Assembly (NCBI RefSeq): GCF_032854445.1
Contig: NC_088302.1
Location: 39,562,191 to 39,626,190, forward strand
Direction: 5' to 3'
DNA: 64,000 nt
Origin: Liolophura sinensis
Taxonomy: Eukaryota > Mollusca > Polyplacophora > Chitonida > Chitonidae
Positions 77-64,000 of this stretch are shown here, one piece after another. The position numbers and the translations under genes were made by a program. The notes below the pieces were generated by a model. That model made no database searches and was not told the origin of the DNA. It saw only the letters and a program-made list of their open reading frames with translations. Numbering within the stretch: position 1 is the first letter of the stretch; each line of letters opens with the position of its first letter.

Positions 77-655
77 TTCTAATCAGATGAATGGATTTAT
101 ACACATGAAAACTATTTTTCAATGAAAATTACCTTCTTACTCTGAACAATAAAAGTATTACACAGTTTACTGTACACTTTATCAAGCTAACAAAACCTTC
201 CTGCACTGGCGCCTTTATCAACACTTCACAAATCTGAACCAGAAGCTCCTCTGGATGTTTATCCACCTTTTTGTGCAAAATACAGAAAATGTAACAACAA
301 ATGTAACAAAACATGTAACAAACAAATCTGTAAAAATGATGAGAAAATGTAAAATCTAATGCTTACATGTTCAAAATATAACCAGACTATGTCAACAATA
401 AAGAAAATGTGTGATCCAAATTGTGAAGCTCTAGAGTAAATTGTAAATAATTCTAGAGTTGACACAAGTACACTGTTTGATTGTAACAAAGCCACAATCA
501 CAGCCGCACATTGTGAGTGCATCTTGTTAACCAAGATGCGCTCTTGCAAAAGTGAAATCAACATACACTCACAAAGGGGCATAAAAAATTGAATAAAACA
601 CAGAGAGCAAAACAACAGGGTAAAGTAAATCACAAGATTTAAGTATAAAGTACAT

Positions 656-661
656 TTTATT
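656..661 (-). terminator. Candidate poly(A) signal of the MET-like gene
   Basis: TTTATT on the plus strand, so AATAAA in the transcript, about 1 kb past the stop codon. An alternative lies at 1493-1498. Confidence 0.25.
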
Positions 662-1688
662 TTGCATATACACATGAATAATGCAGTGTACTGTATAATG
701 TATTAAAAGTAGTGCCCATTGGATATATATACATATATATATACACACATATACATACACATGTAATAGAAACTCTATAATGTAAATGAAGAGAAGATTT
801 TAAAATACAAATGTAAAATGTAGAATCTGCCACAAGGTAATAGTTCACCTGTATGAGGAGGAATGGACAGAACGACAACTGGCAGTGTCGTCAGTAGTGA
901 TCAGTCTTTATCTACAAAATGACAATACTTTAAAGTATACAGTTATATTTATCAAACAAGTATAAAAGATCTGCTCAACAATTTAGAGGTAAAACTTTTG
1001 AATAAAGCCCCCTGATTGATTCTGTCCAAAAAACGAATCAACATTAGAAAAATCAGCACCAGTTGGAAAACTAAGGTAAAGGGAATAAGTGAGGCACAAC
1101 GCTGTTATTGGATATTGAACCGTCGTTCATCCATGGCAGAGATGATTCAACAATCATCATGCGAGAATATCTGCCCTCAAACAACAGCCAACAGCCACCA
1201 GCCACTTGCTAAGACTGCTTTTCATGCACCGTTGCATTCACTGGCCATGACCAGGGAATGTTGAATTTGTTTCGACTTAATCATCTCTTGGAGCCTGCGG
1301 GGACCGCTGGTGGAGGGTTGTCAGCCCCTCACCAGCCCTGTGAGAACCAAATATCTTCACCTTCCACTTTTAAGCCTGAGTTTCATACAGCCGGTAGATG
1401 AGCACTGGTAACTGGTTGTCAAGCCAACCTGGGACTGCGATTCGATTGTTCTCATGAAATTGGATTCACAGGTGGTGCTTGGAAAAGTTGAATTTATTTC
1501 AACTTTACTGGTGTTCATGTCTGGTAACCATGTTTCCAGATCACATGCAGAGACACTGGTAGCCCTCACCAGCTGTACAAGAGCCAGGCTTTAGCACTAC
1601 TTCCCACTCTGGAGTAACAGTTCTTGAAAATATCAATATTATATGTAGTCCATATAATAAGGTACAAGAGCCTATCCACGTAGACACA

Positions 1689-30504
<28,816 letters not shown>

Positions 30505-42774: not shown

Positions 42775-43790
42775 ATCTCAGAGTACCTTCGACTCGCCGA
42801 GTATGATGACACCACTCCGAGTATCTCAGAATTGTGGAGTACCACATCACATAAACAGATCTCTCTCAATGAATATTATGACGGAGCTCACAGTACCTTC
42901 GACTCACCGAGTATGATGACACCACTTCGAGTATCTCAGAACTGTGGAGTACCACATCACATAAACAGATCTCTCTCAATGAATATTATGACGGAGCTCA
43001 CAGTACCTTCGACTCACCGAGTATGATGACACCACTCCGAGTATCTCAGAATTGTGGAGTGCCACATCACATAAACTGATCTCTCTCGCTGAATACTATG
43101 ACGGAGCTCACAGTACCTTCGACTCACCGAGTATGATGACACCACTTCGAGTATCTCAGAACTGTGGAGTACCACATCACATAAACAGATCTCTCTCAAT
43201 GAATATTATGACGGAGCTCACAGTACCTTCGACTCGCCAAGTATGATGACACCACTCCGAGTATCTCAGAATTGTGGAGTACCACATCACATAAATAGAT
43301 CTCTCTCAATAAATATTATGACGGAGCTCACAGTACCTTCGACTCACCGAGTATGATGACACCACTTCGAGTATCTCAGAATTGTGGAGTGCCACATCAC
43401 ATAAACTGATCTCTCTCGCTGAATATTATGATGGAGCTCACAGTACCTCCGACTCGCCAAGTAAGATGACACCACTCCGAGTATCTCAGAATTGTGGAGT
43501 GCCACATCATATGAACAGATCTCTCTCGCTGAATATTATGACAGAGCTCAGAGTACCTTCGACTCGCCAAGTATGATGACACCACTTTGAGTATCTCAGA
43601 ATTGTGGAGTGCCACATCACATAAACTGATCTCTCTCGCTGAATATTATGACAGAGCTCAGAGTACCTCCGACTCACCAAGTGTGATGACACCGCTCAGA
43701 GCATATCAGAATCATGGAGTACCGTATCATATAAACAGGCCTTTCTTGTCAAATATGATGATGGAGCTCAAAGGATGTTCAACTTGCTGT
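42775..43790. repeat. 110-bp tandem array, about nine copies, 3' of furry
   Basis: gtaccttcgactcgccgagt recurs at 42783, 42893, 43003 and so on every 110 bp. Part of the unit (gactcgccaagtatgatgac) is shared with the 36-bp array that abuts the furry stop codon. Confidence 0.95.
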
Positions 43791-43834
43791 GTATGAGTAC
43801 GAGTAGTAGAGCAGATATAAACAGACCACTCAGA

Positions 43835-43995
43835 GCATCTCCGACTTGCCAAGAATGATGACAGATCTCAGAGCATCTGACTCGCCAAGTATGATGACAG
43901 ATCTCAGAGCATCTGACTCGCCAAGTATGATGACAGATCTCAGAGCATCTGACTCGCCGATTATGATTACAGATCTCAGAGCATTTCTGACTCGC
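43835..43995. repeat. 36-bp tandem array overlapping the furry stop codon
   Basis: Four to five copies of gactcgccaagtatgatgac plus agatctcagagcatct. The copy nearest the gene is the last coding stretch of furry ([11 protein letters not shown] and stop). Confidence 0.9.
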
Positions 43996-44154
43996 CCAGT
44001 ATGATGACAGAGCACTCAGGTTCCTCCCTTTCTTGCATGGTCTGAGATGTTGAGCTGATCTGGGACCAGACCAGCTCTAGTTGCACATGGAGGTCCATCA
44101 GCTGGCTGTGCAACTCCCCAAGGTCAAGGTCGACCTTTGTCATCACAAACACTC
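43976..44154 (-). CDS. FRY: Furry last coding exon
   Basis: [20 protein letters not shown] to [14 protein letters not shown] at 43976-43978. Its end is one unit of the 36-bp array that follows, so the C-terminus may vary with repeat number. Confidence 0.88.
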
Positions 44155-47100
44155 CTGCAACAACAACAACAACAACAACAACAGGGTGTCAATTGGTTTG
44201 TAGATAAGCAGACAACATGTTCATGTACTGATATTACATTACTCTCCAGAGAATTGAAATAAACTGAAATTGGCAATCACAAAGAGGAGCATCTTCACCT
44301 GTTGGATACATTTGTTCAGAAAACAAATCGGGCTAAGATGTCATCATCACACAACTGCCAAACTCATCTGTACTCACCTGATCGTTTATCAGCCAATCCC
44401 CGACAGTAGATATTTAGCAGAGCCACAATATCATCCTCACATCCTTGGCCAAACAGGTCTAGGGGGCAGGATGCTCTGAGGCATACAAACAATGAAGTTG
44501 GAGTTGGAGAAAATGCAAATTAAGATATCAATTCTATTAAGTTTTTTCCTTCACCATTTTGGCTTTCACAAAGGTTCATGGCAACAAAGGCCTTGAAAAC
44601 TTTTGAATTTAACTTATTTAATTAATAACATAAATATAAACCAAAAATAAATAAAAGTAACACTAGAAAACAAACAACTGTAACCAAATCTGAAACAAAA
44701 GGACCACAGTCTAATTTCAATGTACTTCTTACAGTTTTTGTCTGAAGCTCAAAATTCAATGTATACAAAGGACAAAAAAAAAAAAATTGAAATCTGTCAT
44801 AATTTGGGAGCAATAGGGTGCCTCTTCTGCCTTATCTGTGCTGTTCATTGTTCATCCTCGCCTCCGTACAATAACAATGATCAATTCTGCATGGACCCCA
44901 GTCTACATTGCATAGGAACCAGGACCCCATACCAGCTGGACAGAATTGCTAGAATCTCAGCTGTGTTGGATTACCTGTAGGCCCTGAGTAGCTGTATGGC
45001 CTTGAGGTAGCGCTCTCCGTTCAGGTACTCAGCCAGGCTGGTCAGGGCCTCCTGTCTGGACACCACCTTACTGTCCACCTGTAAAGGTGACACCTGACCG
45101 TGCTCCATCTCCCTAGCTGCCTGAGTTAGTTCAGATCGTACTACTGTCACAGGGATGGAAAAGTCAACAACCTGCCAAACCAAAACACCAATAGAGCTCT
45201 ATACTGAAGCAACTGTTTGAGTGTTTGCTTTGTGGTTTAACTTTCAACATTATAATGGTTGTAGCGGGCTGGTTCTAATGCAAACATATTTGCTGTGCTG
45301 CCTTACTGAAATGCCATGCCAAAGACACCAGATACAGTCTACTGACATTGGGCAGATGGGCCCTTATGCCGTGCATCAGAAGTACCAAGATTACAGATTT
45401 ACAAGTCTTAAGTATAACCCAACTCAGGCCTTGTCTGGAGGAATATGCCTTCCATAGTACTTCTTGAGATATAACATTATGCGGAAATCACAAACTTTGA
45501 CCTGTGAAAACCTGTCTCAGTGGTTTTAATGGACATATAGGCATGCATGGCTTCACTGACTTGGCCAAAGCCTTGGGTTTAGGTTGAATATTATGGATTT
45601 AAGTTGAATACTATCCAGTATAATCACATAAAATAATAATATGTCTTGGTCTATGTTCAATGGGAGAGAGGTCCTAACCTGTGGGGAGTTGGCGACTGTG
45701 TGGAAGACTTCCAATAACTTCATGTAATTCTCAAACAGCAGTACCAGCTGGAAGTGAAGCTTGTAAAGCCGACGACAAAGCTCCATTTTCTGTCAGAAAA
45801 AAAAAATTTAAGACAGAAAAAAAATGTAAGATAGAAAAAAAAATTTAAGATTGAAAAAAAAAAAATTTAAGATGAAAAGAAAATGATTAGGTTTTAAGAA
45901 CCAATGACTGACAACTAATGACATTTGAAGACTGAGTGAGTGAGTGCTTTTGGTTTAACATTGTACTTGCCAATTTTTCAGTAATATGACGACGAAGGAA
46001 TCTTTAGAGTGCATGTAATGTGCCTCCTTGTTGCAGGACAGATTTCCATCGCTCTTTTATCTCGTGCTGTATCACTGAGACAACTTACTGAAGGCAAGTA
46101 AGCCGCCCCGCCCAAACCATTATACTGATACGGGTCAACCAGTCGTTGCACTATTCCCTTCATGCTGAACGCCAAGCGAGGAAGTTACAAGTTCCTCTTT
46201 TAAGGTCTTAGGTGTGACCAGACCCTGGATTGACCCTGGATCTACCACCTCCTGAAGCAGACGCTCAACCAACTGTGCTATCGGGGCATTTGAAGACATA
46301 TATGTTATAGGAAAAATGCTAACGAATTCAACAGTCTAATCTTCTGGACAATGAATATATTTCAATTCGTAACATTACAAGCCTATCAAAAATGCATCTC
46401 AGGCAACCTTTAAGAAATAGAAAGAAGGAAGACAGAACAATTAGGGTTCGATGTACCTGCTCTTCTCCACAGATGGCACCACATTCTCCTAATGACTGCT
46501 GTTTGATGGAAGCCTTAATGTCATCCAGACACTGAGGAAAACAGAAAATACAGTTTTAAGGCCGTTTTGTCTCAATGGTCATTGAATTGCTTGCATTCAT
46601 CTTTAACCAGCTGTGAAAGTTCCCAAATACATTTTCTGCTCTAACCTATTATGAAAGTCCAGAAAGTAAAAGTTTGCCCATGCAGGTAGTGTCCAGGTGT
46701 GTAATGTAATTCATCAACCTTTTCACATGTTTATAAGGTGTTTACTGAAACTTAGACTGAAGGTATTATTCTGTTTAGAATGATAAAATCAGAAGCCCTG
46801 AGATCGGCTAACCTAACCAGTGTACTTTCCTCTAAAAAAATCAAATCTAAAAGTTGCATAAATGGCACTGAAAGTTGCTCTTTTATATGTGAAGATAAAG
46901 GTGAGTCTATGTACCTGTTCAACCTGGTCCTTCCTCATGGAGTATGTTTCATAGCATTCTTGTATTTCCAGAACACAGAACCTGTGTTTCTCAACCACGC
47001 GTGTACCCATTATCTGAAACAGGTATTTATTTTTCTTACTTGACTGTTGCTTAAGTGGGTACTTGAAAAAAAAAAACTTGAACATATTCGACATAAGTCA

Positions 47101-50100
47101 GATTCACAGACTGGAGGAAACTCAAGTGAACAGAGTAAACTTTGTTAGTCTTCAGACATGCTACAGATGGCCTAAAGCCACGACCAAACCAGTGAGAGCA
47201 GGATTCAAGCTCATGATCTCATTAAGTAAGGGCTGAATGGCTAAGTCTAGAACAGCCCACAGGTCTACTGCCATACTGAAAGCCCTCAGGTACAAACAGT
47301 TACCTACAATCAGTAATCAAGACCCATGATTTGACACCAGTTGGCAATACATCCGTTAGACTCGAATAACAGAGTGTTACAATGTGATGCAGACAGCAAT
47401 AAATACCCACACTGATGGACAAGTATTATCAAGAGCACCAAATAAATGAACTTACTGTTTCTGGTTCTGTGAAGACATGGGGACATTCCATCCGGTCAAT
47501 CAAAATGTTCAAAATCTGCAGTGGTCAGAGTAAAGGGGGCCTAGAGTGAAATTTTCTATCACTGACAACAACATGTATAGTTATGTATTTATTTATATTA
47601 GTTGGTGTTAAACGATGTACTCAAGAATTTACCACTTATACCATGGTGTTCTGGTTTACAAGTGGAGAGGGGAATTTATTTATTTATTTGATTGGTGATT
47701 ATGCAGTACTCAAGAATATTTCCCTTATCCGAGGGCAGCCAGCATTATGTTGGGAGGAAACCAGGCAGAGCCTTTGGGGTCATCTGCATGTTGCTGGCGA
47801 ATCTTCCCAGAGGAGCCCAGCATGAGCTGGACTCAAAATAACAGTGACCTCACTACTGGAAAACTACCAGCACACTCCTGGGGCATCCGTAGAGGAATTT
47901 CGGCCTGGCTTGTTTAGCATTACACAACAGGCATTACTACATAAGTCTTGTTGGATGCGCCGATAATCCATGCAATCATGAAAGGATATGAATTTGCCAG
48001 GCTAGGGATTTGAGGGACTCAGTCTTGCTAACATAATAACATGCTTCCTTTGTCACATTAGCCATGCGTCTTCTCAGTTCCTGAAAATTAGAAAAATTCT
48101 CATGAACTATTAATTAACAACAAATGATAACTGTATTTTCAAAATTTATTTCCACGACTAAGTTACTCATTTTGCATGACCTGAGAGTTCAAATGATCTT
48201 AGAAGATTGAATCACTTTGCATGATCTGACAGTTCAAATGATCTTAGAAGACTGACTCATTTTGCATGATCTGGCAGTTCAAATGATCTTAGAAGACTGA
48301 CTCATTTTGCATGATCTGACAGTTCAAATGATCTTAGAAGACTGATTCATTTTGCAATATCTGAGAGTTCAAATGGTCTTCAGATTTCAGCATGAATAGT
48401 AATATCTTTTGCCGTTATCTGCCTCCAAAAATACACCTTTCTTAGCCAATTTTTAGGGCGAACATATATAAGAAAATTAGTGTTCAATAACTGTTTAATT
48501 TATGGGTAAATGCAGTCATGTCTGCAATCAGCACATCATATTTACACGTGCCTCAAAAGCATCATAATCATTACCTTATAGAGACGAGGAAAGATCTGAC
48601 AGGTGCTTATTACGTTAACCGCTGTAGAGTCGGCCATAACCTTTGACACATGTGATCTCCACAAGTCTTCTACCTCATCACTCTGGACGTTGAGGAAGGC
48701 CGCAGAGAGGTGGGAGAAGTTGGGAGAGGCGGTGCTGGAGCTGAGCTCTACGATGTCCCCGTCACTGTACGAGCTGTGGAGGCTGTGACTGAGAACAGAG
48801 AAGTACACGTAGAGATATAAACACAGTGTTCTTGGTTTCAGTCTCTCACAGGTTCTACCGAAGCTTTAAAGGTGAACTGAAAATTTTTCAATTTTCAAAA
48901 ATTGTTGACCTGTACCATGTCATAGCGAAGCCCCGTTCCAAATTTCAATTCAATATGACAAACCTTTTAGAAAAAAATCATGGTCTAAAACATGAGAATT
49001 TTTTTTGGTTTTTTATTTACACCTAACAGGTATGGTAATGAAGACTTACGTGGATGTAGTAAGAGGGCTGCTGAGTAACACTGGGTTTTCCATGATGATA
49101 GAGCCAGGAGCTGGGAGGTCTTGAGGCATTCCGTCATCAGCTGGAGACTCGGAGTGTGACTGAAAGCCATTGAAAATTCATTACCCGTTTACTGCATTTG
49201 ACTCCAAAATTTTGTCCAAGATTTAGCATATAATTTTAAGTGAGAATTCTGTTAATTTTAGATAGATGTTTTGTGGTTTGTTCGGAAGGTAAGAGAACAG
49301 CTACTGGAAAAATGTAAGTTTCAGCAAAGTAACATGACCTCTTATTTGCCTCTACAAATGCATTTTTGGGGGGAGAAGATTCAGGAAAATTGGATTAAGT
49401 CTACAGGTATGGAATATATCTTTCTTGCTTTTCCTGAATTCAAATCAAGTTGCAAGATTCTAGAAGTTATAATCCCAATCAATGTCATGAAACACATGGA
49501 CCAAAACCCCTTAAGTCGTTTTTTGTTTTCATGTGGTGACATGCAATCATACTGTTGCATTTGTTTGCTAAGATAATAAATGGACAATTTCTACTGGCTG
49601 TTGGTTGCCATGGTTACCTCCTCATCTTCCGAGGTCATGCCTGCATCTTCCTCCTCAGGCTGACGCTGTCGCTCTTCGTTGCCTGCTTCGCCTCTGCGCT
49701 GCTAGTCAGAGCGGCTAAGTCGGGCACACTGCTAAAGTGAGTCCTGGTGGGCGTCTCCGGCCGATCTAGTTGACTCAGAGACTGGTGGCGATTACTCAGC
49801 GAGGAGTAGTTATAATTATCATCCTGTTGGAATAAATCCATTGTTACCTTATAATGAATTTATAGTGGTTGTTATTCAGCCAGAGTAGTTGTCATTATCA
49901 TCCTGTTGGAATAAATCCATTGTTACCTTATAATGAATTTATAGTGGTTGTTATTCAGCCAGAGTAGTTGTCATTATCATCCTGTTGGAATAAATCCATT
50001 GTTACCTTATAATGAATTTATAGTGGTTGTTATTCAGCCAGAGTAGTTGTCATTATCATCCTGTTGGAATAAATCCATTGTTACCTTATAATGAATTTAT

Positions 50101-53100
50101 AGTGGCAGTTATTCAGCCGAGTAGTTGTCATTATCATCCTGTTGGAATAAATCCATTGTTACCTTATAATGAATTTATAGTGGTTGTTATTCAGCCGGAG
50201 TAGTTGTCATTATCACCTTGATGCAAAATGCAGAAAAGCCTAAATTTCTACAAAAATTAGACTTCGTAGACTTTCAAAATATTTTAATGCAAACTCCACA
50301 ACTAAAAGCAAAACTGAAAAATTCTTTAGGCATTTCCTTTTTTTTATGTATTAATTTACTACAATTGTTTTTAAGATATGATAGTGTCCGTTACCTCATT
50401 TTCTTCAGTTCATTGAGGAAGTCAAATCTCTTGAAGACCAGAAGTTCATTTCCGCCGGTTTTCATTCAGTAGTGCATCACCTTGGAAAGGAAAAGGACAC
50501 CATAAAACCCTGACCCACCAGCAAAAGCACTTATATTTATATTAATTTCATCAAATTCATAGTCATTCCATTTTTTAAATGATAATAATTTTTTTTTAAT
50601 ATCTACCTGTAGCTTGCTCAATTCTTCTGGAACATTTTACCTAAATATAAATATAAAGTTCTGCTAAATGCTTTTCTGTATGTTTAAAAAATTCTGTGTC
50701 ATTCTGATACGACCAATCCGATTCTCTATAATAAAAACGAAAAATTAAAACATATTCTTTCATTTATTTCAATTCCTCTTATACCACTCGGAGAAATGTC
50801 TAAATTCTCTAGAAGTTCGACCACAGGCATGAGAGCATCTTTTGGCATATTACAGGAATATTACCTGATCTGGTCCAGATATATTATAATTTCTGAGAAG
50901 TTCATATGTGCCACAACCCGAACAAGACATTACAGTTTTTCTAAATGTTATGAATTCTGTATTGTTTCATATTACATCCTAAATTACTGTTCGAATATGT
51001 TGAGGATTCGGGATGAATGTGAAGGAAACAGTAAAACATGAGAAGAAATTTACTTATTTGTGTGTTGCTTAATGCTCCTAGTACTCAAGATGTTTTTCTT
51101 ATACATATTCACCGGCAGTCAGTTTTATGTGCGAATGTTATGAAAGTACACAAGGTAAAACCAACATCATTTGGCAAGTTACTGACGAATTTTCTCATGT
51201 GTAACATTTAGATATGCACACTATATTGGTGGTAGACAAGTGCCTTTTTAGGAGAATATTAGGCAGTACAAAGGACTACATGAGCCACACAGGCCGCTTA
51301 TTGTCACAAAGGTTTCATAAACATTAAGAGACGGGGAATCCACTAATTCTCTGTCCAAATCTGGGATTGAACATGCACCTTGTGATTGAAAAGCAAGCGC
51401 AACACCTCATTTCCTATAAATGTTAGGAATTATTTTTCTAAACTGCATCTAAAGCCATACTCTTTGTTGGTCAAATTTGTTGAGTATTTAAGGCAAGCGT
51501 AAAAGGAAACATTAAAATGTAAGAACAAAATAACAATCTGCGTTAACATACTAGAAATAGCATCTGTGATAGAGGCTTCCTCACTGCTTCCCGAAGCCAC
51601 GCTCTGCTGGTGGTCCAAGGTGTCGCTGGATTGGCTGAAGATGACCTAAAACAGGTGAGAAAGGTCGTCAGTGAAATAACACTAATACATATTTTTAAAT
51701 AACAGTAATATGAATGTTGAACAAATATGGAAAATAGGGATATCCTATGGTGGAACAGTGAGGGAGTATGAAACCACAATGGGTCTACTGGAACACATTG
51801 CTCTAATACAAGTACCTCTTACAGTGTATAATACTCCATATAATACAAATATGACTTTGGCCACATCTCTTACAGATGGCACATCCCACCTAACATGTTC
51901 AAACAGAGAGAAAAGAACTTTAAAATCTATCACCAAAACAATGACCAAAACTACAAAAACCATATTCCACACAAAGTTTTAATTACGGTATTTCACCTAA
52001 AGTTTGGCATTTTTCACACGACGCATTAAATTTGCTTGACTCTGACTGATTCATCCACCTTATACTTTTTCTGTGATGTTTGATTAATTTCTTGTCAGAA
52101 AAATTGAAGTATTTGCATCAAGAGTATAGTTTTGAGGCTTTTACACGATTCTGAACATACATTTTTATAGGCCAAACTTGAGGTGAAGAACAGTTTTTAT
52201 CTGGACTGATTGGCGTTTAATATCGCTAACTGAATAGAAAGTTGAAAATAAAAATAAATTTACACCGTAATTACAGAACAGACTGTCAAGATCGAGAAAA
52301 AACCCTGTCAATATCAAGCTGTTGAAAAGTTTCAGTGGTAATAGATATTGTGCCTTATTGGTGACTGTCAAGTAAAATTTCACAAATGAGAGTATGTCTG
52401 TAAAAATATTAAAATATTTTTAAAATATTACATCACACTTCCAAGTTGGCTATTTCACATACTGCTTGATGTACTTTGAGAAGAAAAATTATTTTGGTGG
52501 ACATGAACCAAACTCTACAGATCCTGAAACTAGTGTGCATCTTCTCAGCTCAACAAGGTAAGTAACTCTGGATTAGCTTGGCTGTACAAATTAAACTTTT
52601 GACTTAAAAAAAAAAAAAAAAGGAGAAGAAAGAAAAAAAGAAACACACATTCTTCATCCATGTAACATTTGGTGAGTTCAAACTGAACCTAATTTAAGGC
52701 CAAAATCAAACAATGCCATGCTCCAAAATGTCTTTTCACTTGCTAATACAAAAAAAAAAAGTATAAAAAATAACTAAACTCAATTCAGACACAACTTCAT
52801 TGGAAAGCCATTCCTAAATCATTCGCTGTTTGGTGTGTAAAAGAAGCACATATTTTAAACCGTGCAGCAAATAACAAAAAACAATAAAAGTAAAACTACT
52901 CTGATATACACTTGCATGTAACTGTACACAAACGAAAGCAGCAACTCCAAAACTGCATTGCACAACTGTCTAAGATCTGATGCTTGTTTGTTTTACACAT
53001 GAAGTGGTTAACTCGCATGTCAGACTACAGCCCTATGATAAGTGAGTGTAGACTGTCATCTCTCTGAACATAGAGATTAACTTAGGGGGCGGGGCACACA

Positions 53101-56100
53101 GCCAAACCCGCTTACCTTATTTATAGCAGTGTCCTACGCAGACAGCATGAAGAAAACAGATTACATATTGAACATGCAAGACACTACCAACAACAACAAC
53201 GCTCTCCTCTATGCTCTATATAAGGGGCGATACTGAGTAGTATTCAGGCAGCACTGTCTTTACATAATTTATGCATGTATCTCACATTTTTGAAAACTAT
53301 ATACATGTACATGTGTTTCAATGGGCCATAATTGATTTTTAGCTTAGCTAAATTGTCAAAATGAATCTTTTCCTTCCATTTTCCTTGAATTTAAAATTTC
53401 ATACCAGAACATGAAGAACTGATCTGTTTCGCCAGTATTTTATTATGACCCTTTATCCCTGTGTATAAAATTGTACCATCTAATATGCTGCTGACATATA
53501 TACAGGTTACAAGAGATTACAATGTTGCAAAGTATTGATTTATACAATTCGAAAGTATTGAGATCTTGGACAATGGAAAACAAATTTACTTGCAGCAATC
53601 GTTCAGCCAAAAGAATTTTAACCAAAAGGACAGAAACAGCCTGGATGTCATACAATAGGTACTAGAAATGGAGAACACATGTTGCAAAAATTTTCAGGGA
53701 GACAACATAGTCATTCCATAAAAAAAGAGAGTACAAAAATAAATAAATAAAAACATAAAATAAGGTTAAAAGTTCACATCACTCTGCTAAAGAAGTAATA
53801 AATAAAGGCAGGATTGTATTCAAGTAATCTTGTAACATATAACAACATAGCAGATGTCCATCAAACTATTTCAACCTTTAATATTTGGTACAGTCAGAGG
53901 GAAAAAAAGTTGCCACATTACATCATTTTCATAAATAGTTTCCTTCAATTTAGAGATTAAAGGCCAATCCAACAGGGATTTGAAAATCATCCATTTTCAC
54001 AAAAGTATAGAAAACAATGAACACAGAGGACATAAAACGATACTAAGGGAGATAGCTGTTAGATTTGTCCTTACCGATGGGCTCTTTGGCAGACCCACAC
54101 GTGGTCCATAACATGTCAGCAGATTCACCAGTCTGTCACGTGTTCTGGCCTGAAATGTGAGAATCAACGGTGTCAGTTACAGCACACATTATGACTCAGT
54201 TATAGCATATCTTGTGGTCAGTCAGGGTTCTGCCAAGAAAATGTTGAGTGGTGGGCACCCAGTGTGGAATGAGCCAGCGAGCGGCGATGAGGGTGTGTGA
54301 GGAAGGAAGCGTCCTCCTTCAAATGGAAGCAACCTTTAAAAAATTACTCATCTAACGGTTCTCTGAAAGAGCATCTGAACCACGAAAGACAAAAAGACAG
54401 CTGGAACAAAATCTGTGGAATACATCAGTAGAAATGTAGGATGCAAAATACTTTATTGGCCTACTGTACAGTGTAGACTAGTGTGTAAATTCAATGTTGT
54501 AGTTATTTTTGAAGTTGTATTTTGACACTGCCTACACTGAAGTTTGCAATGCATTTTATAGCAATGGCTCACCACTGCTTTTATTTTTTCTAACTGACCC
54601 TGGCATTGGGATTGTTTCTGTTTTTTTGGATTGCTTTGTTATTCAGAGTAGAATTGTCATGGTTCATTACTTAAGTTTGCATTTGCCACTGTGAACAGAG
54701 ATTTGTCACACATGTTGTCATGGCAACTGTTTAGTTCTGAAAAATACTGTCGCAAAGTGCATCTTTCGGCTATCTTTGGTCATTACATACTGAGTCACAA
54801 CTTCCCAGGATCCTTGTTTACCAAGAAATGTGCTGAAGGCAGTGTCGCAAACATCTGTACGTGCCACAATGTTTACGGCAATTGTGATCACTTTTGAGAG
54901 AACGGTATGATAACTGCTGATCCACTGTCCCTTCCAAGAAATATGAATAAAGCTGTCTTGATTTTGGAGTGCTGGGTGCATCAAGATTTTGTGTCTGACA
55001 CTGGGCACTCAATGCTAGTGCCAAGCACGGATGCCCATTATGGGCAGAGCCCTGGTCAGTTATAGGCCACATCATGACTCAATTACTGCATATCTTATGG
55101 TCAGTTAAAGGCCAGATCATGACTCAGTTACTATACACCTTATGGTCAGTTACAGGCCAGATTATAACTCAGTTACGGCATATCTTATGGTCAGTTACAG
55201 GCCAGATCATGACTCAGTTACACCTACATGTACCTCATAGTCAAGTACAGGACACAGGATAGTTAAATTAGTAAGTTACTCGCATCATTGTCAGTTACAG
55301 CATATCTTAAGATCAGTTATAGAAAAAATCATCATTGTTAATTCATGTCATGTTCTGTTAAATACACACGGCATGGTTTGAGAGTAAATACTGTACCTGT
55401 GAGGCTGAGGGCCTCCTCCACCCAGAGTCTGTATCTGACATATTTGCCGAAGGTTTGCGTGCCAATGCTAGGGCTGGGTTACCAGCGGAGCCATCTGCAT
55501 CTGAGGACCTGGAGTCAGCGTGAATGTATTTCCGGCCAATGTAAGGTGTCTCTGTCAAGTTCACTGTGAAATCCAAGGTCCTGCCTAAAATGAGAAATAC
55601 AAGACTATTCTGTATGTATTCAATATTGACAGTTCTGTGTAAAACACAAAGAAACTAGTAGAAAACATACTCAAATGGGACACTGCAAAAATTAACGACT
55701 GAAGAGCAATGTATAGTACCACTCACACAAGGATGTATAGAGGAAGTACCTGACACCTTACCTGGAAGTTCCTTCTTGAAATAAACCTCTGCTTCAGCAA
55801 AGGAGGTGTGTGCCATCATCAGGGGACTTAACTCACTGCTGATACTAGCACTCATAGAGGGAGGGGCAGCAGTCAGGGTGGAAGAACGGGTCACAGCTAA
55901 TTTTAAAATCTTCAAGGCATCTCTGGAATGGGAACCCTGAAAAAACAAAAAAAATAGAAGATTTAAAATGTTTCTACTAGCTACATACTTACAGACGAAT
56001 CTAAATGCTTTGTTAGGTATTCAAATAAAGATACAATGTATATGTCCTCCTTCCCACAAACTCCTTTAGTATTGAGAAACACACCCACATGAACTGGGTG

Positions 56101-59100
56101 GTTCAGGCCCCATCACAGTGAATCTAAAACCCAAAGGAAAAAAGGACAAAATCAAGTAATATTTATCAAAACCTAATAATGTTTTCTTCAGCATGTTAGC
56201 TATAAGCCCGACAGCTGTCATATAAACAGACATTTTTTTAAGTGTAACATTAAATATCGATCACATATAAAATCAATACAATAAATGACTTGCCTCAACA
56301 TGTTTAGCGACATTCTTGAAGAGCTCTATGTTGATGATATGAGTCGGGGGTTTACTGATGTCCACATAATGAACCAGACAGTAGAGGATCTGTAAGACTG
56401 CTGGTTGACAGCTGACAGGACCTCGCTCCAAAACCTGAGCAGAATAAATACTGATTAACTGAAATAACACAGCCTGCATGTACAGGCAGATATTAATACT
56501 TTTGTTTGTTTCCTTTATTTCAAGAATCGTTTTCTAAGATACATGTAATTTAGTCATATCATGACACTGGGCGCTTGTAGCAGGCCAGTCCCACTGCAGG
56601 CACTTTCACAGTATTGGACTGCTAAAGACTGGACACCAGGGCTCAGTTTCTCAAAGCATTGTACAACATTTTTTTATCGTACATTTGTTGTAACATATTT
56701 TGTACGTAACTATTACTGTACCACTGTCCTATGTGTGTGATTATTGTACATGTACGACACTTTTGTGAAACTAAGCCCAGAAATGTTTTCCAACTTATTA
56801 AAGCAAACTGATCAGCTACACCTCTCCAGCTAATGGTAAAGGCCATACTAAATACATGTAGTTCACCTACCTCCACTAAAAAGGTGATCATACTTAGGCT
56901 GGCACATGAGTACACATCATGCAGGTACTTGACCACACACTTTGTCCACTGGAAGCTGTCCTTGCCGAATGTCCCGTGGCTGTAGAGGGACATGACTGTG
57001 GCCAGATTCCCCAGGTGTTCTGACTGCTGGCTGCATGTCTGCGGAGAGAGAAACACAGATGTGAGCTCCTTGTAAATAGCACAGTGTAGTCAACAAATAT
57101 ACATTCAATGCTAAATATGCATAATGTATCAGTGGATCAAGTTCGAACATTTGAAGCATTTATTACACAAAAATTTAGTATTTCACACCACAAGTTCAAA
57201 TCCCCATATGCCCTTCTCATTAAAAGAGTCACTTATAATATGGAAATGGGACGATATATGTGCATTAGATTTGATGTGATTACCTGTGAGATACGATCTG
57301 CTGCATCACGACACACCTGTCCTGGACTCTCGTAATTCTGCACCAAATAAGGCAGTAAAGCTATCACATTCATCGGGAAACCTAGGACACACATAAACGA
57401 ACAGTACGTGTGAAAAGCAATATAACATAGACAATATAACATTCACACAGAATTCATTTAGCTTTCTGTCTAGAATCTTTTACATATAAAGAAATTCTAT
57501 ATCATAATAGTGTATCAACATATGCAGAAATACTTTCTGCTCGTTCAATGTTGACATAATTTCTGAAAAGTTCAGACCACTGACAAAAAAAAAATGCATA
57601 AAACAGGGATAATTTTAATGAATAAAAATATGCCAAAAAATTAAAATTAAAAAAAAATTTAGCCAAAAATGTTTTGATTTTCCACATAAACATAATCTTT
57701 TCATTTTACTTTTCATGAACCCTTTAACATTTCTTACCTAGAGCACCTGTAGGATCAATTACTGGAGCATTGATACACAGTGTCAGGTGAGAGAGAAGGG
57801 ACCAGGTCATCTCTGCCGTACCCTGGGATGTACAGCCCTGTGGTCATACAGAAAGACAGCAACATGCACAACCTGACATGTGAATCACACACAACATTTC
57901 CCGAAATCCACAACCAATACCAGAATTTTGACATTACAACATTATGGTGACATCGTGCTATGACTTTACAGCACTTGAGGGCTAACACGTGCATTTTAAC
58001 ATAAGGGGGCTAAATACACAATTGATGGTTATCCACAAAACTGATTTGTAGTAATGTTGAATCTCGAAATTTTTTAATTCTGCCAGTAAAGTTTAACTTT
58101 AGAAGCAAATTAAAACATAATTCATAAGATTTTCACCACTTGTATGTATTTTTCAGGTAGAGACACATTCATGTCTTTATTTATCTATTCTAAATCCATG
58201 CAGATAACATTCACTTGTCATTATCATACAGAGCCGCAGAACACCCACCTTCAGCAGCAGGCTTTGAATGCCAGGGAAATTTGGCCATTTGATTACCTGT
58301 CATCATCATACAGAGCCACAGAACACCCACCTTCAGCAGAAGACTTTGAACGCCAGGGAAATTTGGCCATTTGATTACCTGTCATTATCATACAGAGCCG
58401 CAGAACACCCACCTTCAGCAGAAGACTTTGAACGCCAGGGAAATTTGGCCATTTCATTACCTGTCATTACCATACAGAGCCGCAGAACACCCACCTTCAG
58501 CAGAAGACTTTGAACGCCAGGGAAATTTGGCCATTTGATTACCTGTCATTATCATACATAGCCGCAGAACACCCACCTTCAGCAGAAGACTTTGAACGCC
58601 AGGGAAATTTGGCCATTTGATTACCTGTCATTATCATACATAGCCGCAGAACACCCACCTTCAGCAGAAGACTTTGAACGCCAGGGAAATTTGGCCATTT
58701 GATCTGTTGAAGGATTTTATCCAGCTTTTCCCTACAGTCGGGTCTACCTGGCTGAAGATGCTTCAGAATCTGGGAAACACATGTGGAGAGTGGTTAAATA
58801 ATATCCACACATCTGACTGACTGACTGACAAACTCGTGGTTTATTTATAAAACAAAACACAAAGTTAATTATACAGCTGTATCTGTATTCTACTCCATGC
58901 CTCACTTATGATTTATTTATTTTATTGGAGATTAACACTGTGTTCAAAACTATGTCACTTACAAGACAGCGGCTACCATTATGGCATGGCCAAACAGGAC
59001 GGAGTCCAGGGGGAAAAACAACCTTATGATTTGTTACTATCCACATGATTCAATAATGAATACAATGAACTTTTAGATGGATGTGAGGACAATGACACGA

Positions 59101-62100
59101 AGAAAATGTTTAAACCAGGAAAGAATATGGTTTTATGATATATGTAAATGCTTTGGCAAGTTATTGATGAACTTTAAAACATGTGACATACAGAGCTACA
59201 TTTTATGGTATCACCCAATAGTTCTTAAATACTGAATCTGAAAACTGAAGGCAGAGTCTAGCAGTTGAAATACAGAGCTGACTGTATCAAACATCTATGT
59301 GCATACAGGGCTAAAGTTTCATGAATTAACAGGTTTATTTTTTACCTTCTAACAAACGCGAAAGTCATTGTCCATCACAACACCCTTCCTTCTAAAACTA
59401 ACCTGTTCTAGGAGCCTAGTGGCCAGCTGAAACTCATATTCATAGTCCGACTCCAGCATGGACACAGCGATCCAGAACATCTGGGTGAGAATGGTGAGTT
59501 TGTCCTCCGTGCTGTTCTGGTCCAGGTTTTTCAGGGATTGCGCACTGCGCGACCTCGCCAGGTTTGTTGTCTTCTTAGCTGTCATCTCCGTAGAGCTCCT
59601 GTGACGAGCATCCCCACCTGTATTCAAGGTGAGGTGAACAGGTAAGAAACTAACTAAAATTGAAGTTTTATGAGAGGAGGAAAACAAACTGCCCAGAGTA
59701 AACTGTCGTCCTTCCCCAGAACCCTGATCCAGTGCCTGACATAAGGCCCTAGATGAAACAGCAAAAGATGGATTTGAACATGTAACTTCACCGGTAAAGG
59801 GCCTGATAGTTGTAGCTAATCAGCCCTTTAACCAGCTGAGTCACCAAGGACCTAGCATGGTTCATTAAGTCACAATTATATATATGCAGATACCTGACTA
59901 ACATTTTCTTCAAAGTCCAGTGCACACGGGTATATGTTACCGAAAAAGAGAGTTTGTTATCAAGGTAAGAAAAAAAAAATCTTCAAAATTTTGCTTGTGT
60001 AACCCTAAAAGAGATTTCTAAACCGACCTGATTTTAAAAAAAAAAGAAAACAAATGTTGTATATGTGTGAGTAACTGATACTCCAGAACATTTCAGACCA
60101 GGATCTGAAAATACTACTTTTTTGCAACAGATGTTGTTCATGTGCGCTGGGCTTAAGACCATTGTAGTGAAGACACAATGCAGAGGTAACCATGCGTACT
60201 ATCTGTGTTAGCAACGTTATTCCTGCCCTTACCGCCAGGGGTGACAGCCATCCTACCAGTGGCGACAGAGACTGAGTAGCTGGTGGTGCGATTGTGGTGG
60301 GGTGGGGGTTCCCTCCCTATCAGTCCACTCGGGGGGATAGGGGCACTCTTCCTATTCTCAGCCCAGGTCTCCTTGGCCAGGTTAGGGGTGGACATGAACA
60401 GCTCTCGCATGAAGTCTGTGGGGCGCACTTCCATCTCCAGGTAATCCACAGCTGCCTCCAGGGTCAGCATGATTTCTGTCACATAACCCTGGGAGAGCAG
60501 AGAAGTCAATATGCATCACATAATCCTGTGTTTACTAATACAATGTCAATGTAGCAAACTGGAGTACCTTGAGTAAACCACCCACCTTTGGCAATTTATT
60601 TATTTTATTCAATTTGATTGGTAATCAAGAATATTTCACTCACAGCAGCAAGCATTATGGTGGGTGGAAACCAAGCAGAGCCCAGGGGAAACCCACGACC
60701 ATCCGTAGGTTACTGCAGACCTTCCGACATACCTTTGGCGATTTACTGTTGAACTCTCAAAACATATCATACAAATGTCACACTTACAAACCTCATGCAA
60801 GACCACACAAGCATTGCTGACAGCTTAATGCTAGCAGGGCTTTAACAACAATCAAAGATTGTGTGCTTTTCAAAAAAATGTGTTCTACTGTGATTTGGGC
60901 CCTTTAGTGTAGCTCATCCTCCAGTTTCTCACAAAGCATAGATAAGGTAATAAAGTTTTAGTACTGGATGATTTTTCATCTGATAAGAAGCCAGAACTAA
61001 CCTGCATGTCATCTCCTTGTTCAGCTACAGTCTCCACAAGTCGAGACAAGATGTCTGTCAGCATCTGTGTGGAGGGTCGCACTCGTAACGCTCGCACAAT
61101 CTGCACAGTAAAAACAGGTGCATCAAATTTGCTTGAAACAATTTACACAGTGGTAAAAACTAATGCCATGAAAATCTATAACAGGCCAAAGTTGACAATC
61201 ATCTGGAATCAACAATTTATTTCTATTATACATGTACTAAAAAATGCACACATATCAGGTTTGAACTAGTAAACCCATCGCAATGAATACTTTTTTTTTT
61301 TTAACGTTATGCAATAATTTATCCAGCTTAAATTCTCATGTTACTCTTTTCACATGTGTTGGCACAACTCACCTGGAATGACCTGCCGGCATAATGCCTG
61401 GAAGAACAAGACAGGGCCAACTGCAGCGCAATCTGAGCCCACCGCTGCTCCACACCTGACAGGGGAGCTAACTCCTTGCACACCTGTACCACACATTTAA
61501 GCAGGTATTCCAGCTGTGTGGCGCTGTGGATGGTCAAACTCTTAGAGGTGATGTCCTCATAGCTCCATAGTGGTCGACCCGGTCTTAAGATAGACAATGG
61601 CATCCATCACAAACTGATCATACTCATACAATACATGCATGATGTTCCTCACCAACAAGCACAAATTCAAACTTCTGAAACTTTGTTTCCAATGATTTAA
61701 AAATCCCATTTAATAGGGGAACTTGTAACACTCCTTGTCATCTGTAAAGAAATATCTTAAGCTATGAACTATTTTGTGTTTTCATTTATTATGTCATAAT
61801 TATCAGTGTATGTGTGCCGATAAAACACCCAGGTACAATGACTCTGCAACGTCACAGAAGAAAGTGATGTGTTCTATAGCTATGTGGACACCTTTGTCTG
61901 GCCTGTCTGCAGTCTCCCACTGAGTAGGTCTGTCTTAAAAAATCTCTACCTACTGCTCCAAGCATCATCTATATTTCAAGTCATGATTATGAAAGTTCAA
62001 ACATGCACTATCTTGCCAGTGAACTCAAACTTTCATAAATACCTACCATACCTACATAATGTCTACACTGTACTCATTCTATCCAGGTTTAACAAAAAAG

Positions 62101-63062
62101 ACTTGTCTCACCGACATTAGCTATGTTACGTTAATACTTATCTTATAAACTATATAACGGTGAGTTAAAAACCAGCACCAATATCATTCCACCTTAGCCC
62201 TTGGAGATTACCTTTTCTTGATCAATGACACAATAATCTGCATAACCTCATCCACATTAGTAATGGCTTCAAGGTCGGGTAACTGTGTGTCACTATTCTC
62301 AGGGGTCACGGTGGCACTACTGTCCACACTCAGGGTCGACTGACCAATGGAAAACTTGGTAATGCTGTCATGTGACACCTGTCCACCTAGGCCATCTGGA
62401 AAACAAGAAGATTTCAGTTAACTCTGAAATGAGGAAACATAACATAACATAATATGCTCTTATTTTATATTCCATGAAATTGAATTTTGATCAATAAATC
62501 AATATAAACACACAATTTCCATTTTAATGCAAAGGGAAATTAACTATTTTTTTAATATTTACTAATTTACAGCACATTTTTTTAATTAAATAATGTAGTA
62601 TTTTTTGTGCAGCAGCTTCACATAGTGACAGAATTATCCTTAGGCAACTTCTATACAGTGTATATGAATAAAGTTTTATGTATTTATTTATTTATTTGAT
62701 TACCGTATTTGGTGTTTTATGCTGTACCAGCACTCAAGGATATTTTACTCATTTGATAGTGGCCAGCTGGAGATAAAACCTGCAACCATCTGCATGTTGC
62801 TGACAAACCTTCCCATCTGAACCAAGTTTTATACAAGAGAGTCTATTTTCTAGCAGAGCTGATCTCTCACCTGAGGCCGTAGTACCTATGACAGAATAGA
62901 GCTTCTCCTCTGCTATCAGTGCCAGGTTGTCCCCAAGGTTTGTCTTATTAGCGCATAGGTTACGCGCAATGTGGGGGTGCTCATGGGCAGCCAACAACAA
63001 CAACAGATTCTGCAACAACTTCTTACAGTGCTCATAAACCAACACTTTTGAGTGGTCCAAAC
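43976..63062 (-). CDS. FRY: Furry (FRY/FRYL family), C-terminal 28 exons; gene continues beyond 64000
   Basis: Furry proteins (about 3000 residues) are cytoplasmic scaffolds related to yeast Tao3 and Mor2. They bind and promote NDR/LATS-type kinases and shape cells, including dendrites and epithelial hairs. The 28 exons here encode about 1270 residues. Their order matches [172 protein letters not shown], and a C-terminus with [13 protein letters not shown]. Splice phases agree throughout except at 49618-50480, where single-base frame breaks occur. The 5' half lies outside the window; the last intron seen is filled by a 48-bp array. Confidence 0.93.
44157..44183. repeat. (CAA)n microsatellite
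   Basis: caacaacaacaacaacaaca run directly beyond the acceptor of the last furry exon. Confidence 0.9.
44378..44475 (-). CDS. FRY: Furry window exon 27
   Basis: [20 protein letters not shown], aligned with FRYL WPSDIFGSCEDDPVQTLL. Confidence 0.93.
44975..45171 (-). CDS. FRY: Furry window exon 26
   Basis: [20 protein letters not shown] to [14 protein letters not shown], phase 2 exit. Confidence 0.93.
45679..45789 (-). CDS. FRY: Furry window exon 25
   Basis: [20 protein letters not shown], nearly identical to [22 protein letters not shown]. Confidence 0.96.
45920..46290 (-). mobile_element. SINE-B, longer copy with tRNA-like head
   Basis: Minus-strand head with A box TAGCACAGTTGG (46269-46280) and a B-box-like GGTAGATCCAGG (46235-46246). 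The body is shared with 31535-31770 and ends in cactcactcagtc. Confidence 0.75.
46457..46531 (-). CDS. FRY: Furry window exon 24
   Basis: [20 protein letters not shown] then CGEEQ, phase 0/0. Confidence 0.92.
46690..46905. repeat. Dispersed repeat C, copy 4
   Basis: tttataaggtgtttactgaa, ggctaacctaaccagtgtac, ctgaaagttgctcttttata align with the copies at 17.8 and 22.8 kb. It ends right beside furry exon 23. Confidence 0.6.
46915..47013 (-). CDS. FRY: Furry window exon 23
   Basis: [20 protein letters not shown] then [13 protein letters not shown], phase 0/0. Confidence 0.93.
47456..47515 (-). CDS. FRY: Furry window exon 22
   Basis: [20 protein letters not shown], 20 codons; the ECP.VF core is that of FRYL. 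Confidence 0.92.
47580..47905 (-). mobile_element. SINE-A copy plus a second tail fragment
   Basis: A tail fragment at 47580-47660 is followed by a longer copy at 47678-47905 (gcagccagcattatgttggg, agcatgagctggactcaaaa). Confidence 0.75.
48033..48080 (-). CDS. FRY: Furry window exon 21 (48 nt)
   Basis: [16 protein letters not shown] between tttcag and TAT|GTTAGC, phase 0/0, matching FRYL around EITNEAVSFL. The donor choice is less certain than elsewhere. Confidence 0.75.
48165..48375. repeat. 45-bp tandem array, about 4.5 copies
   Basis: ttgcatgatctgacagttca starts at 48172, 48217, 48262 and 48307, with a last variant at 48352. In a furry intron; unrelated to the exon sequence. Confidence 0.92.
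48575..48788 (-). CDS. FRY: Furry window exon 20
   Basis: [20 protein letters not shown], then [16 protein letters not shown] and CQIFPRLYK, matching FRYL WRCHVNQMLSD and FSRLF. Confidence 0.93.
49050..49159 (-). CDS. FRY: Furry window exon 19
   Basis: [20 protein letters not shown] to LLSSPLTTS, phase 0 in, phase 2 out. Confidence 0.88.
49618..49823 (-). CDS. FRY: Furry window exon 18 (frame-broken)
   Basis: Entry frame: [20 protein letters not shown] to [13 protein letters not shown]. The frame joining to the next exon reads [18 protein letters not shown]. The length, 206 nt, is one short of a multiple of three, so one base is probably missing near 49680-49720. Confidence 0.8.
49797..50217. 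repeat. 79-bp tandem array containing the exon 18 acceptor
   Basis: gttggaataaatccattgtt recurs at 49826, 49905, 49984, 50063 and 50141. Each unit carries the exon's first roughly 26 nt and its acceptor ttattccaacag; the gene-side unit is the working junction. Confidence 0.93.
50395..50480 (-). CDS. FRY: Furry window exon 17 (frame-broken)
   Basis: Entry frame reads [10 protein letters not shown] then TGA; a second frame reads [15 protein letters not shown], matching FRYL VFKDFDFL. The exit frame needed by the next exon reads EENE. At least two single-base shifts are therefore implied, near 50447 and 50407. Confidence 0.75.
51050..51420. repeat. Diverged interspersed repeat fragment
   Basis: Phrases such as ggcaagttactgacgaattt tctcatgtg also occur near 15430, 37125 and 59155, suggesting an old SINE-like family. 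Confidence 0.45.
51552..51645 (-). CDS. FRY: Furry window exon 16
   Basis: [20 protein letters not shown] then [11 protein letters not shown], ending in phase 1 at TCTA|GTATGT. Confidence 0.9.
51646..54074. other. Furry introns around the candidate microexon
   Basis: Apart from 53116-53133, no exon or clear repeat recognised; AT-rich with several A-runs. Confidence 0.5.
53116..53133 (-). CDS. FRY: Furry candidate 18-nt microexon
   Basis: Flanked by gtctgcgtag and AAG|GTAAGC, it would add DTAINK between PKSPS and VIFSQ in frame. Direct joining of the neighbours also works and matches FRYL, so this would be an optional cassette. Confidence 0.5.
54075..54149 (-). CDS. FRY: Furry window exon 14
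   Basis: 25 codons, [20 protein letters not shown] and PKSPS, phase 0/0. Confidence 0.95.
54165..55330. repeat. 45-bp tandem array split by an inserted element
   Basis: Units of cttatggtcagttacaggcc and atgactcagttacggcatat. cttatggtcag occurs at 55094, 55139 and 55184, with related units at 54165-54222. The parts are separated by the element at 54223-55054. Confidence 0.85.
54223..55054. mobile_element. Non-autonomous TIR DNA transposon (hAT-like ends)
   Basis: Ends cagggttctgcc and ggcagagccctg are inverted repeats, 11 of 12 matching. The flanks are the direct repeat gtcagt (54217-54222, 55055-55060). The insertion lies inside a 45-bp array whose units resume on the other side. 832 bp, no transposase. 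A hAT would give 8-bp duplications, so the family is uncertain. Confidence 0.7.
55397..55584 (-). CDS. FRY: Furry window exon 13
   Basis: Completes ELPGRTLDF, then ETPYIGRKY and a Ser-rich part ending [10 protein letters not shown]. Confidence 0.94.
55762..55936 (-). CDS. FRY: Furry window exon 12
   Basis: [20 protein letters not shown] to VYFKKELPG, with acceptor gttttttcag. Confidence 0.94.
56294..56434 (-). CDS. FRY: Furry window exon 11, followed by a GC-AG intron
   Basis: [20 protein letters not shown] to NVAKHVE, 47 codons. The exon ends GAG|GCAAGTC, a consensus GC donor; joining to exon 12 gives [18 protein letters not shown], as in FRYL. Confidence 0.93.
56871..57038 (-). CDS. FRY: Furry window exon 10
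   Basis: [20 protein letters not shown] then [20 protein letters not shown], phase 0/0. Confidence 0.95.
57284..57381 (-). CDS. FRY: Furry window exon 9
   Basis: [20 protein letters not shown] then [12 protein letters not shown], matching FRYL GFPLNILCLLPHL. Confidence 0.94.
57738..57837 (-). CDS. FRY: Furry window exon 8
   Basis: [20 protein letters not shown] then [13 protein letters not shown]; phase 0 in, phase 1 out. Confidence 0.92.
58225..58690. repeat. 82-bp tandem array of the exon 7 donor region
   Basis: acacccacct recurs at 58241, 58323, 58405, 58487, 58569 and 58651, exactly 82 bp apart. Each unit carries about 43 nt of coding sequence plus AAG|GTGGGTG; the last is the real exon junction. 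Confidence 0.96.
58659..58769 (-). CDS. FRY: Furry window exon 7
   Basis: 37 codons ending [14 protein letters not shown] at AAG|GTGGGTG. The 3' half of this exon and its donor are tandemly copied in the following intron (58225-58650). Confidence 0.93.
58915..59020 (-). mobile_element. SINE-A fragment
   Basis: tttattggagattaacactg, cttacaagacagcggctacc; tail and adjoining body only. Confidence 0.5.
59403..59617 (-). CDS. FRY: Furry window exon 6
   Basis: Basic, Ser-rich linker ([11 protein letters not shown]) leading into [20 protein letters not shown], a strongly conserved furry stretch. Confidence 0.95.
60233..60488 (-). CDS. FRY: Furry window exon 5
   Basis: [20 protein letters not shown] then [16 protein letters not shown], followed by a Pro/Ser-rich linker (SAPIPPSGL). 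Confidence 0.95.
60595..60745 (-). mobile_element. SINE-A fragment
   Basis: caatttgattggtaatcaag to gaaacccacgaccatccgta, body only. Confidence 0.7.
61002..61100 (-). CDS. FRY: Furry window exon 4
   Basis: 33 codons, [20 protein letters not shown] then [13 protein letters not shown], phase 0/0. Confidence 0.95.
61373..61583 (-). CDS. FRY: Furry window exon 3
   Basis: [14 protein letters not shown] and [20 protein letters not shown] are almost word-for-word FRYL. The acceptor atcttaag lacks a C before AG but is otherwise sound. Confidence 0.95.
62212..62395 (-). CDS. FRY: Furry window exon 2
   Basis: Reads [20 protein letters not shown] through [14 protein letters not shown]; a Ser/Thr-rich linker typical between helical-repeat blocks. 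Confidence 0.88.
62675..62825 (-). mobile_element. SINE-A fragment
   Basis: tttatttatttgattaccgt, tggtgttttatgctgtacca, accatctgcatgttgctgac. Confidence 0.65.
62871..63062 (-). CDS. FRY: Furry window exon 1
   Basis: After acceptor ttcttctag the split codon gives Gly, then [20 protein letters not shown]. Phase 1 exit at TCAG|GTGAG. Confidence 0.92.
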
Positions 63063-63494
63063 CTAGAAGAACAGTAAGAGGAGCAAAGACAGGTTACTGT
63101 GCCTGTAGGCTTTTGAATTCAGGACTATGCATTTCCTAATACTTACACCTAGAAGAGCAGCAGAATGAGTATAGAAAAGTTACTGTGCCTGTAGGCTTTT
63201 GAATGACAGGACGACATGTGTGATGGATGAATTTATGGTTCACGAGTTTTATTCTTCATTTCAACATTTAATATTCCACCAAATAGCTTTCACAAGCTAC
63301 TGAAAGGGAAACGTAGGAAAGAGAAGAGTTTGATACTACACATACAGTATGGAAGGGTACACTGAATTCGTGTAACTATGCCAGAGATCACACAAGGGAT
63401 ATGCCTCACATGAATATATGTACACCATCAAAATTGCATATGAGCAAGATTACAACAAGAGGGCATGTGGCATCAGATGGATAAAAACGGAAAC

Positions 63495-64000
63495 CTCCCC
63501 AAGGAAGATGATGTGTGACAAGAGTGGGATATAAGGAGATAACTCACTAGGAAGATGATGTGTAACATAAGTGGGATATGAGGAGATAACTTATCAAGGA
63601 AGATGTGCAACAAGAGTGGGATATAAGGAGATAACTCACAAGGAAGATGATGTGTAACATGAGTGGGATATGAAGAGACAACTCACCAAGGAAGATGATG
63701 TGTAACATGAGTGGGATATGAAGAGATAACTCATCAAGGAAGATGATGGGTAACATGAGTGGGATATGCTGAGAAAGATAACTCACCACCACAGATGATG
63801 TGTAACATGATTGGGATATGAAGAGATAACTCACCAAGGAAGATGATGTGTAACATGAGTGGGACAAGAAGAGATAACTCACCAAGGAAGATGATGTGTA
63901 ACATGAGTGGGATATAAGGAGATAACTCACCAAGGAAGATGATGTGTAACATGATTGGGATATGAAGAGATAACTCACCAAGGAAGATGATGTGTAACAT
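63495..64000. repeat. 48-bp tandem array, about 11 copies, reaching the window edge
   Basis: ggaagatgatgtgtaacatg units, mostly 48 bp apart (63503 to 63982). On the minus strand each reads ACACATCATCTTCCTTG|GTGAGT, an exon-like end (LHIIFLG) plus a donor. Confidence 0.93.

Follow-up and report, generated by a model that had tools for sequence, protein, structure and literature searches.

Tandem copies of exon-intron borders in furry, dynein and myosin genes of the mollusc Liolophura sinensis: minisatellites of the mirage type

The window is a stretch of 64,000 nucleotides of Liolophura sinensis DNA, at C8:39562191-39626190 of a 609 Mb assembly, and its right third holds a furry gene on the minus strand in which several minisatellites contain coding sequence from an adjoining exon edge. 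This locus raises the question of whether minisatellites are attracted to exon borders and serve splicing there, or whether ordinary minisatellites simply happen to straddle such borders. The initial annotation held that chance would not place coding edges in so many arrays and that no named system of this kind was known. A name does exist: tandem copies of exon-intron boundaries were called mirages in amphioxus Adh3 and also occur in globins, according to PMC3087553. The present analysis supports, with a probability of about three in four, the reading that the arrays are ordinary minisatellites born from local tandem duplications straddling exon borders and tolerated by splicing, with no special system behind them.

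The stitched peptide from the predicted furry exons matches the Pfam families MOR2-PAG1_mid, MOR2-PAG1_C, and Fry_C. Tandem Repeats Finder (TRF), run on the window, recovered all four arrays that had been reported, with units of 36, 79, 82, and 48 bp, and the units do hold adjoining coding sequence. A splice site is present in three of the four (79, 82, and 48 bp), as had been claimed, and the 36 bp array contains the apparent coding end and stop instead. The features of the gene, in window coordinates, are as follows.

63495..64000, continuing to 64061 in the adjoining DNA (L001), minus strand: 48 bp array (TRF, sequence, Pfam).
64027-64127, just outside the window in L001, minus strand: real exon of the 48 bp array (sequence).
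58216..58703, minus strand: 82 bp array, 6 copies (TRF, sequence, Pfam).
58659..58769, minus strand: furry exon with the donor seeding the 82 bp array (edges read by eye).
49792..50215, minus strand: 79 bp array, 5.4 copies (TRF, sequence).
49618..49823, minus strand: likely furry exon with the acceptor seeding the 79 bp array (open frame, AG acceptor, coding score).
43829..44011, minus strand: 36 bp array, 5 copies (TRF, sequence).
42777..43770, minus strand: 110 bp array in 9 copies, past the apparent stop of furry (TRF, sequence).
48165..48380, minus strand: 45 bp array, intronic, no exon edge seen (TRF).
55053..55256, minus strand: 45/90 bp array, intronic, no exon edge seen (TRF).

On the coding strand, the 48 bp unit is composed of 34 bp of exon 3' end, the donor TTG/GTGAGT, and 14 bp of intron, and it is present in 12 copies, including the authentic edge. 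The 82 bp unit has the same design, with 45 bp of exon 3' end, the donor AAG/GTGGGT, and 37 bp of intron. The MOR2-PAG1_mid alignment crosses the donor junction of the 48 bp array, and the MOR2-PAG1_C alignment crosses that of the 82 bp array with 66 residues on 66 profile positions. The exon parts of both arrays are genuine, as the Pfam alignments pass through the junctions.

The 79 bp unit consists of 47 bp of intron 3' end with the acceptor (ttccaacag) and about 20-32 bp of exon 5' start (DDNYNYSS..). This exon start alone matched no Pfam family, and the Fry_C match is weak (below cut-off) and stops exactly at the array junction. In favour of the exon are its AG acceptor, 62 codons of open frame, and the coding score, which is 2.4 in its own frame, against -40 and -35 in the other two frames and -34 for the preceding intron; the gene finder placed its own acceptor elsewhere, at 49698. 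The 79 bp array repeats an acceptor and, very likely, an exon start, and its exon is likely but less sure than those of the 82 and 48 bp arrays. Within this exon, the 62 open codons are followed by a stop, and an acidic, coding-scoring stretch goes on in another frame. This frame change is either an assembly frameshift or an unseen splice.

The 36 bp array repeats what appear to be the last furry codons (SVIILGES..), and its first copy runs into the stop codon; it has no splice site. Its unit and the downstream 110 bp array share a motif by eye, as if one were derived from the other. Dispersed repeat pieces of the 'CAGCATTATG..GGAAACC' type, presumably a metazoan SINE, occur at about 47650-47830, 60590-60720, and 62680-62830 of the window, and the contig carries eight matches in a row to the molluscan haemocyanin beta-sandwich family PF14830. 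Amphioxus was rejected as the host on these matches; a search for GFP had no hits here, but control genomes gave none either, and it carries no weight. A fifth, smaller case had been proposed in the MET intron and was not borne out: scans of the MET part found no near copy of the predicted exon edges (16-mers with up to 2 mismatches within 1 kb, and 14-mers with 1 mismatch within 300 bp), the exons there being predictions of which some were surely missed. In addition, a search with a consensus donor-pair pattern gave 8 matches, compared with 37 for the reversed control.

The frequency of such arrays was measured in two independent sets of loci, which were placed by Pfam matches to avoid picking by eye. 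The dynein sample contained 15 loci (150 kb) with PF12774 matches out of about 18 clusters, and the myosin sample contained 13 loci (130 kb) with PF00063 matches out of about 19 clusters. Myosin loci with open frames over 490 were meant to be avoided, but L022 and L024 still contain such frames; the 13 myosin loci contain no N. Exons were predicted with a small home-made gene finder trained on Pfam matches, which covers 13179 of 14712 AAA_6 hit bases. The edge criterion was fixed before the myosin loci were fetched, but after the dynein arrays had been seen, and the status of each array was judged by eye. Multiple TRF periods were also cut by eye to the basic unit (183 to 91 bp in L005, 156 to 31 bp in L007, 131 to 44 bp in L012, and some others), and six TRF rows in L019 and two in L023 were each merged into one. 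Excluded from the main test were arrays below 30 bp, the part of the window that holds MET, two L001 arrays lying outside exons, and the L023 repeat region (coding-strand 1-3100), which was partly read as exons. The 26 arrays of 12-29 bp were examined separately, and one of them (L024 1370-1408, 18 bp) overlaps a predicted donor. Two arrays of ambiguous status (L005 9827-9943 and L024 1-282) were counted as lacking an edge. In L023, a minisatellite region of about 3 kb (coding-strand 63-3038) was read by the gene finder as long open frames.

Edge-containing arrays made up 10 of the 41 arrays in the 28 loci, or 11 if one case by unit similarity is included. They comprise 5 of 16 arrays in the dynein loci (91 and 83 bp in L005, 31 bp in L007, 53 bp in L010, and 44 bp in L012) and 5 of 25 in the myosin loci (31 bp in L021, 82 bp with 12.7 copies in L022, 31 bp in L024, 121 bp in L025, and 95 bp in L028). 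The case by unit similarity, a sixth for myosin, is a 32 bp array in L022. This array (coding-strand 9748-9988) begins 59 bp past a donor, and 13 bases of that exon edge recur in its unit. The sample has 688 predicted exon edges, of which the edge arrays touch about 1.5%. Mirages are common in this genome, and the multiplication of decoy donors and acceptors, which the initial annotation described in furry, is real and recurs in other genes. Two arrays of one dynein gene are given here with their positions.

L005, coding-strand 7022-7841: 83 bp donor array, running into a run of N.
L030 (C12, downstream of L005), 286-1736: 66 bp acceptor array, 22 copies.

The 83 bp unit ends in ..LFPGVETPVIDYTK before the donor and is present in 9.9 copies as assembled. 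The 66 bp array was found in an extension and stands outside the count of 41; it ends at a predicted exon (GLKVIDLQQSDY..), repeating the acceptor and exon start of this exon, which we take to be dynein-like. L005 and L030 together hold three mirages in one dynein gene within 13 kb. Another minisatellite, in L027 (coding-strand 1075-1657 and flanks), has a copy of one and the same acceptor and exon start on either side, the upstream one being degraded.

These counts bear on the possibility that a mutational process prefers exon borders, for example through breaks, R-loops, or nucleosome edges at splice sites, so that minisatellites start there above chance. For comparison, each unit was dropped randomly on the array-collapsed loci, wherever the position was not wholly coding. 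Random placement predicts 3.33 edge arrays of 16 in dynein and 2.73 of 25 in myosin, or 6.05 of 41 combined, against which the observed 10 or 11 give P 0.067 or 0.029. Placement within each array's own locus predicts 5.56, with P 0.042 for 10 and 0.017 for 11. The excess is thus 1.65-1.98 fold, and the process would also account for the three edge arrays of the dynein gene above. In furry itself, 3 of 5 intragenic arrays contain an edge compared with 0.82 expected (P 0.032), a figure from the discovery set, which was picked as striking and whose exon list was partly set by hand. The excess weakens under other choices: scaling up the exon numbers by 10% or 25% raises P for 10 arrays to 0.11 or 0.21, and when the set is widened to all 67 arrays of at least 12 bp, P is 0.18 if 10 contain an edge and 0.10 if 11 do. 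The 18 bp array of L024 would raise the edge count of this larger set to 12 at most. All 67 arrays with 25% more exons give P 0.42, and the values therefore span 0.017 to 0.42 according to choices. The position of the edge is also not anchored within the unit, since the fraction of the unit taken up by exon fits a uniform distribution (KS P 0.33). Donor and acceptor sides are represented 9 to 4 among 13 arrays (P 0.27).

Strong enrichment at exon borders was rejected on these figures (10-11 of 41 arrays against 6.05 expected, P up to 0.42). Any attraction to exon borders is no more than about twofold and is not established. P values of 0.017-0.067 for a 1.65-1.98 fold excess mean that a mild border preference is possible, and such a preference as the origin of the arrays is rated as unlikely. 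In exon-dense stretches, random tandem duplication alone places a good share of arrays on exon edges. The earlier argument from chance is not borne out in the independent loci, and the comparison of array overlap with random placement, proposed as a genome-wide check and made here in the 28 loci, yielded a mild excess rather than an established enrichment.

The decoy copies were analysed in 13 edge arrays, namely 3 from furry (including the 79 bp array, whose exon start lacks Pfam support), 5 from dynein, and 5 from myosin. GT is kept in 80 of 90 donor decoys and AG in 15 of 21 acceptor decoys, and up to 17 GT-bearing decoy donors lie beside the real one in L024. Mean identity of the decoys to their own array consensus is 77-98%. 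Pooled mismatch rates are 0.060 in splice cores, 0.037 in exon parts, and 0.048 in intron parts. Without stratification, the core appears to carry an excess of mismatches (49 of 813 against 231 of 5574 for the rest; Fisher P 0.017). This excess results from the mixing of arrays: stratified by array, it shrinks to 0.3 mismatches (P 0.95), and the core has the lower rate in 9 of the 13 arrays and the higher rate in 4. In the exon-derived parts, mismatches by codon position are 48 of 1186, 40 of 1198, and 49 of 1187 (P 0.56). Coding use of the inner copies was rejected on this even distribution.

The unit length is not a multiple of 3 in 12 of the 13 arrays, the furry 48 bp array being the exception, so that use of the next decoy would shift the frame in those 12. 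This property argues for use of the exon-proximal site in these arrays, as judged from the sequence. In each of the 8 other donor arrays, a frame continued past the first donor would run into a stop within 1-39 residues. Together, the splice cores that change as fast as the rest of the unit, the even codon positions, the frame shifts, and the early stops suggest that splicing normally uses the exon-proximal site and that the inner copies evolve like neutral intron sequence. Reading on past the donor of the furry 48 bp array meets no stop in four further intact copies, each of which would add 16 residues, and the decoy donors there score equal to the authentic donor.

The initial annotation also proposed that splice variants could change with repeat number, and a regulatory role of the arrays through such variants would be the functional form of this proposal. 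Decoy sites often score equal to the authentic site, and the furry 48 bp array, with its open frame and equal-score donors, would suit such a role. The role conflicts with the 12 of 13 units that are not multiples of 3, with the stops met on read-through in the 8 other donor arrays, and with copies that lack codon-position constraint. Amphioxus mirages, although in other genes, reportedly cause no interference (PMC3087553). Regulation is an improbable explanation of the arrays. Because 12 of the 13 units would shift the frame, the furry 48 bp array is the main place where repeat-number variants are plausible; it is the sole array of the 13 that might allow them without a frame shift at the next decoy. 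This exception keeps the idea of splice variants alive. A broader combination is unlikely, in which minisatellite birth would be biased about twofold to exon borders, mirages would affect some 1.5% of the edges of exons in exon-rich genes, and in-frame decoys of the furry 48 bp type would give a protein length that tracks repeat number.

Two further explanations concern the nature of the arrays. Dispersed, introner-like elements that carry splice sites could have been inserted at these places, and the units do carry splice sites. The exon part, however, comes from the coding sequence of the host gene itself, at the very border where the array lies, and the furry 82 and 48 bp units (2 of 13 units tested) match their own locus only in the 609 Mb assembly, in a search that skips very common words. 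Dispersed elements were rejected on the result for these two units and are extremely improbable. Collapsed or stuttered copies in the assembly are a very improbable source as well. The arrays are known from one assembly, and the 83 bp array of L005 runs straight into a gap of N, but the copies differ mutually (with the identities given above), and loci on several contigs hold arrays of this kind.

Ordinary minisatellite birth, the preferred reading, would proceed in few steps. A local tandem duplication of a stretch of 31-121 bp, possibly by replication slippage or unequal exchange, would happen to straddle an exon border, as duplications would land more or less randomly on non-coding DNA and exon edges. 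The duplicated stretch would then expand and be homogenised as in other minisatellites. The copy beside the exon body would retain both exon and splice site unharmed, and splicing would use that site, while the inner copies would become decoys that evolve as neutral intron. Arrays that span an edge would survive because the exon-adjacent copy keeps the exon and splice site intact. Many decoy donors beside a real one are a natural test of how splicing selects the exon-proximal site, and the decoy copies form a pool from which new introns could arise. Human introns are likewise said, in the title of Zhuo et al. 2007, to come from tandem arrays.

Among known systems, the closest are the amphioxus mirages, which are described in Adh3, BflGb6, BflGb9, TnC, and PGBD5 with units of 10-160 bp (PMC3087553; PMC3902484), the last two genes being the later additions (PMC3902484). 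They vary in copy number, regular splicing is reportedly intact in Adh3 and the globins, and they were proposed as a source of new introns (PMC3087553). The 13 mollusc arrays resemble them in that minisatellite units span the exon-intron boundary of the host gene, that either boundary can be duplicated (here 9 donor and 4 acceptor), and that many copies, but not all, keep AG or GT (here 95 of 111 decoys). Splicing and somatic instability are reported for amphioxus; the mollusc arrays are known from one assembly. In potato RdRp, a new intron arose through duplication across an intron-exon border (PMC4974935). The mollusc arrays are like this case in that a tandem duplication over an exon-intron border supplies extra splice sites, and unlike it in that they sit beside existing exons in existing introns. 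Unlike introner-like dispersed elements, the same unit is not found at many unrelated loci (2 of 13 units tested).

The host here is a mollusc, unlike that of the amphioxus mirages, and this difference is taken as one of known range and not of a defining property. A literature search, confined to open-access papers and leaving most subscription papers outside, found no molluscan report of such arrays; together with the named amphioxus precedent, this indicates mirages in another phylum. The mollusc arrays belong to this named structure, and what is new is the phylum and the frequency measured in a sample. The work goes beyond the amphioxus reports in that edge arrays were set against all arrays in independently placed loci and the neutrality of the decoys was measured. 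A structure described as possibly general in cephalochordates is thereby extended to a mollusc with a number attached, 10-11 of 41 arrays.
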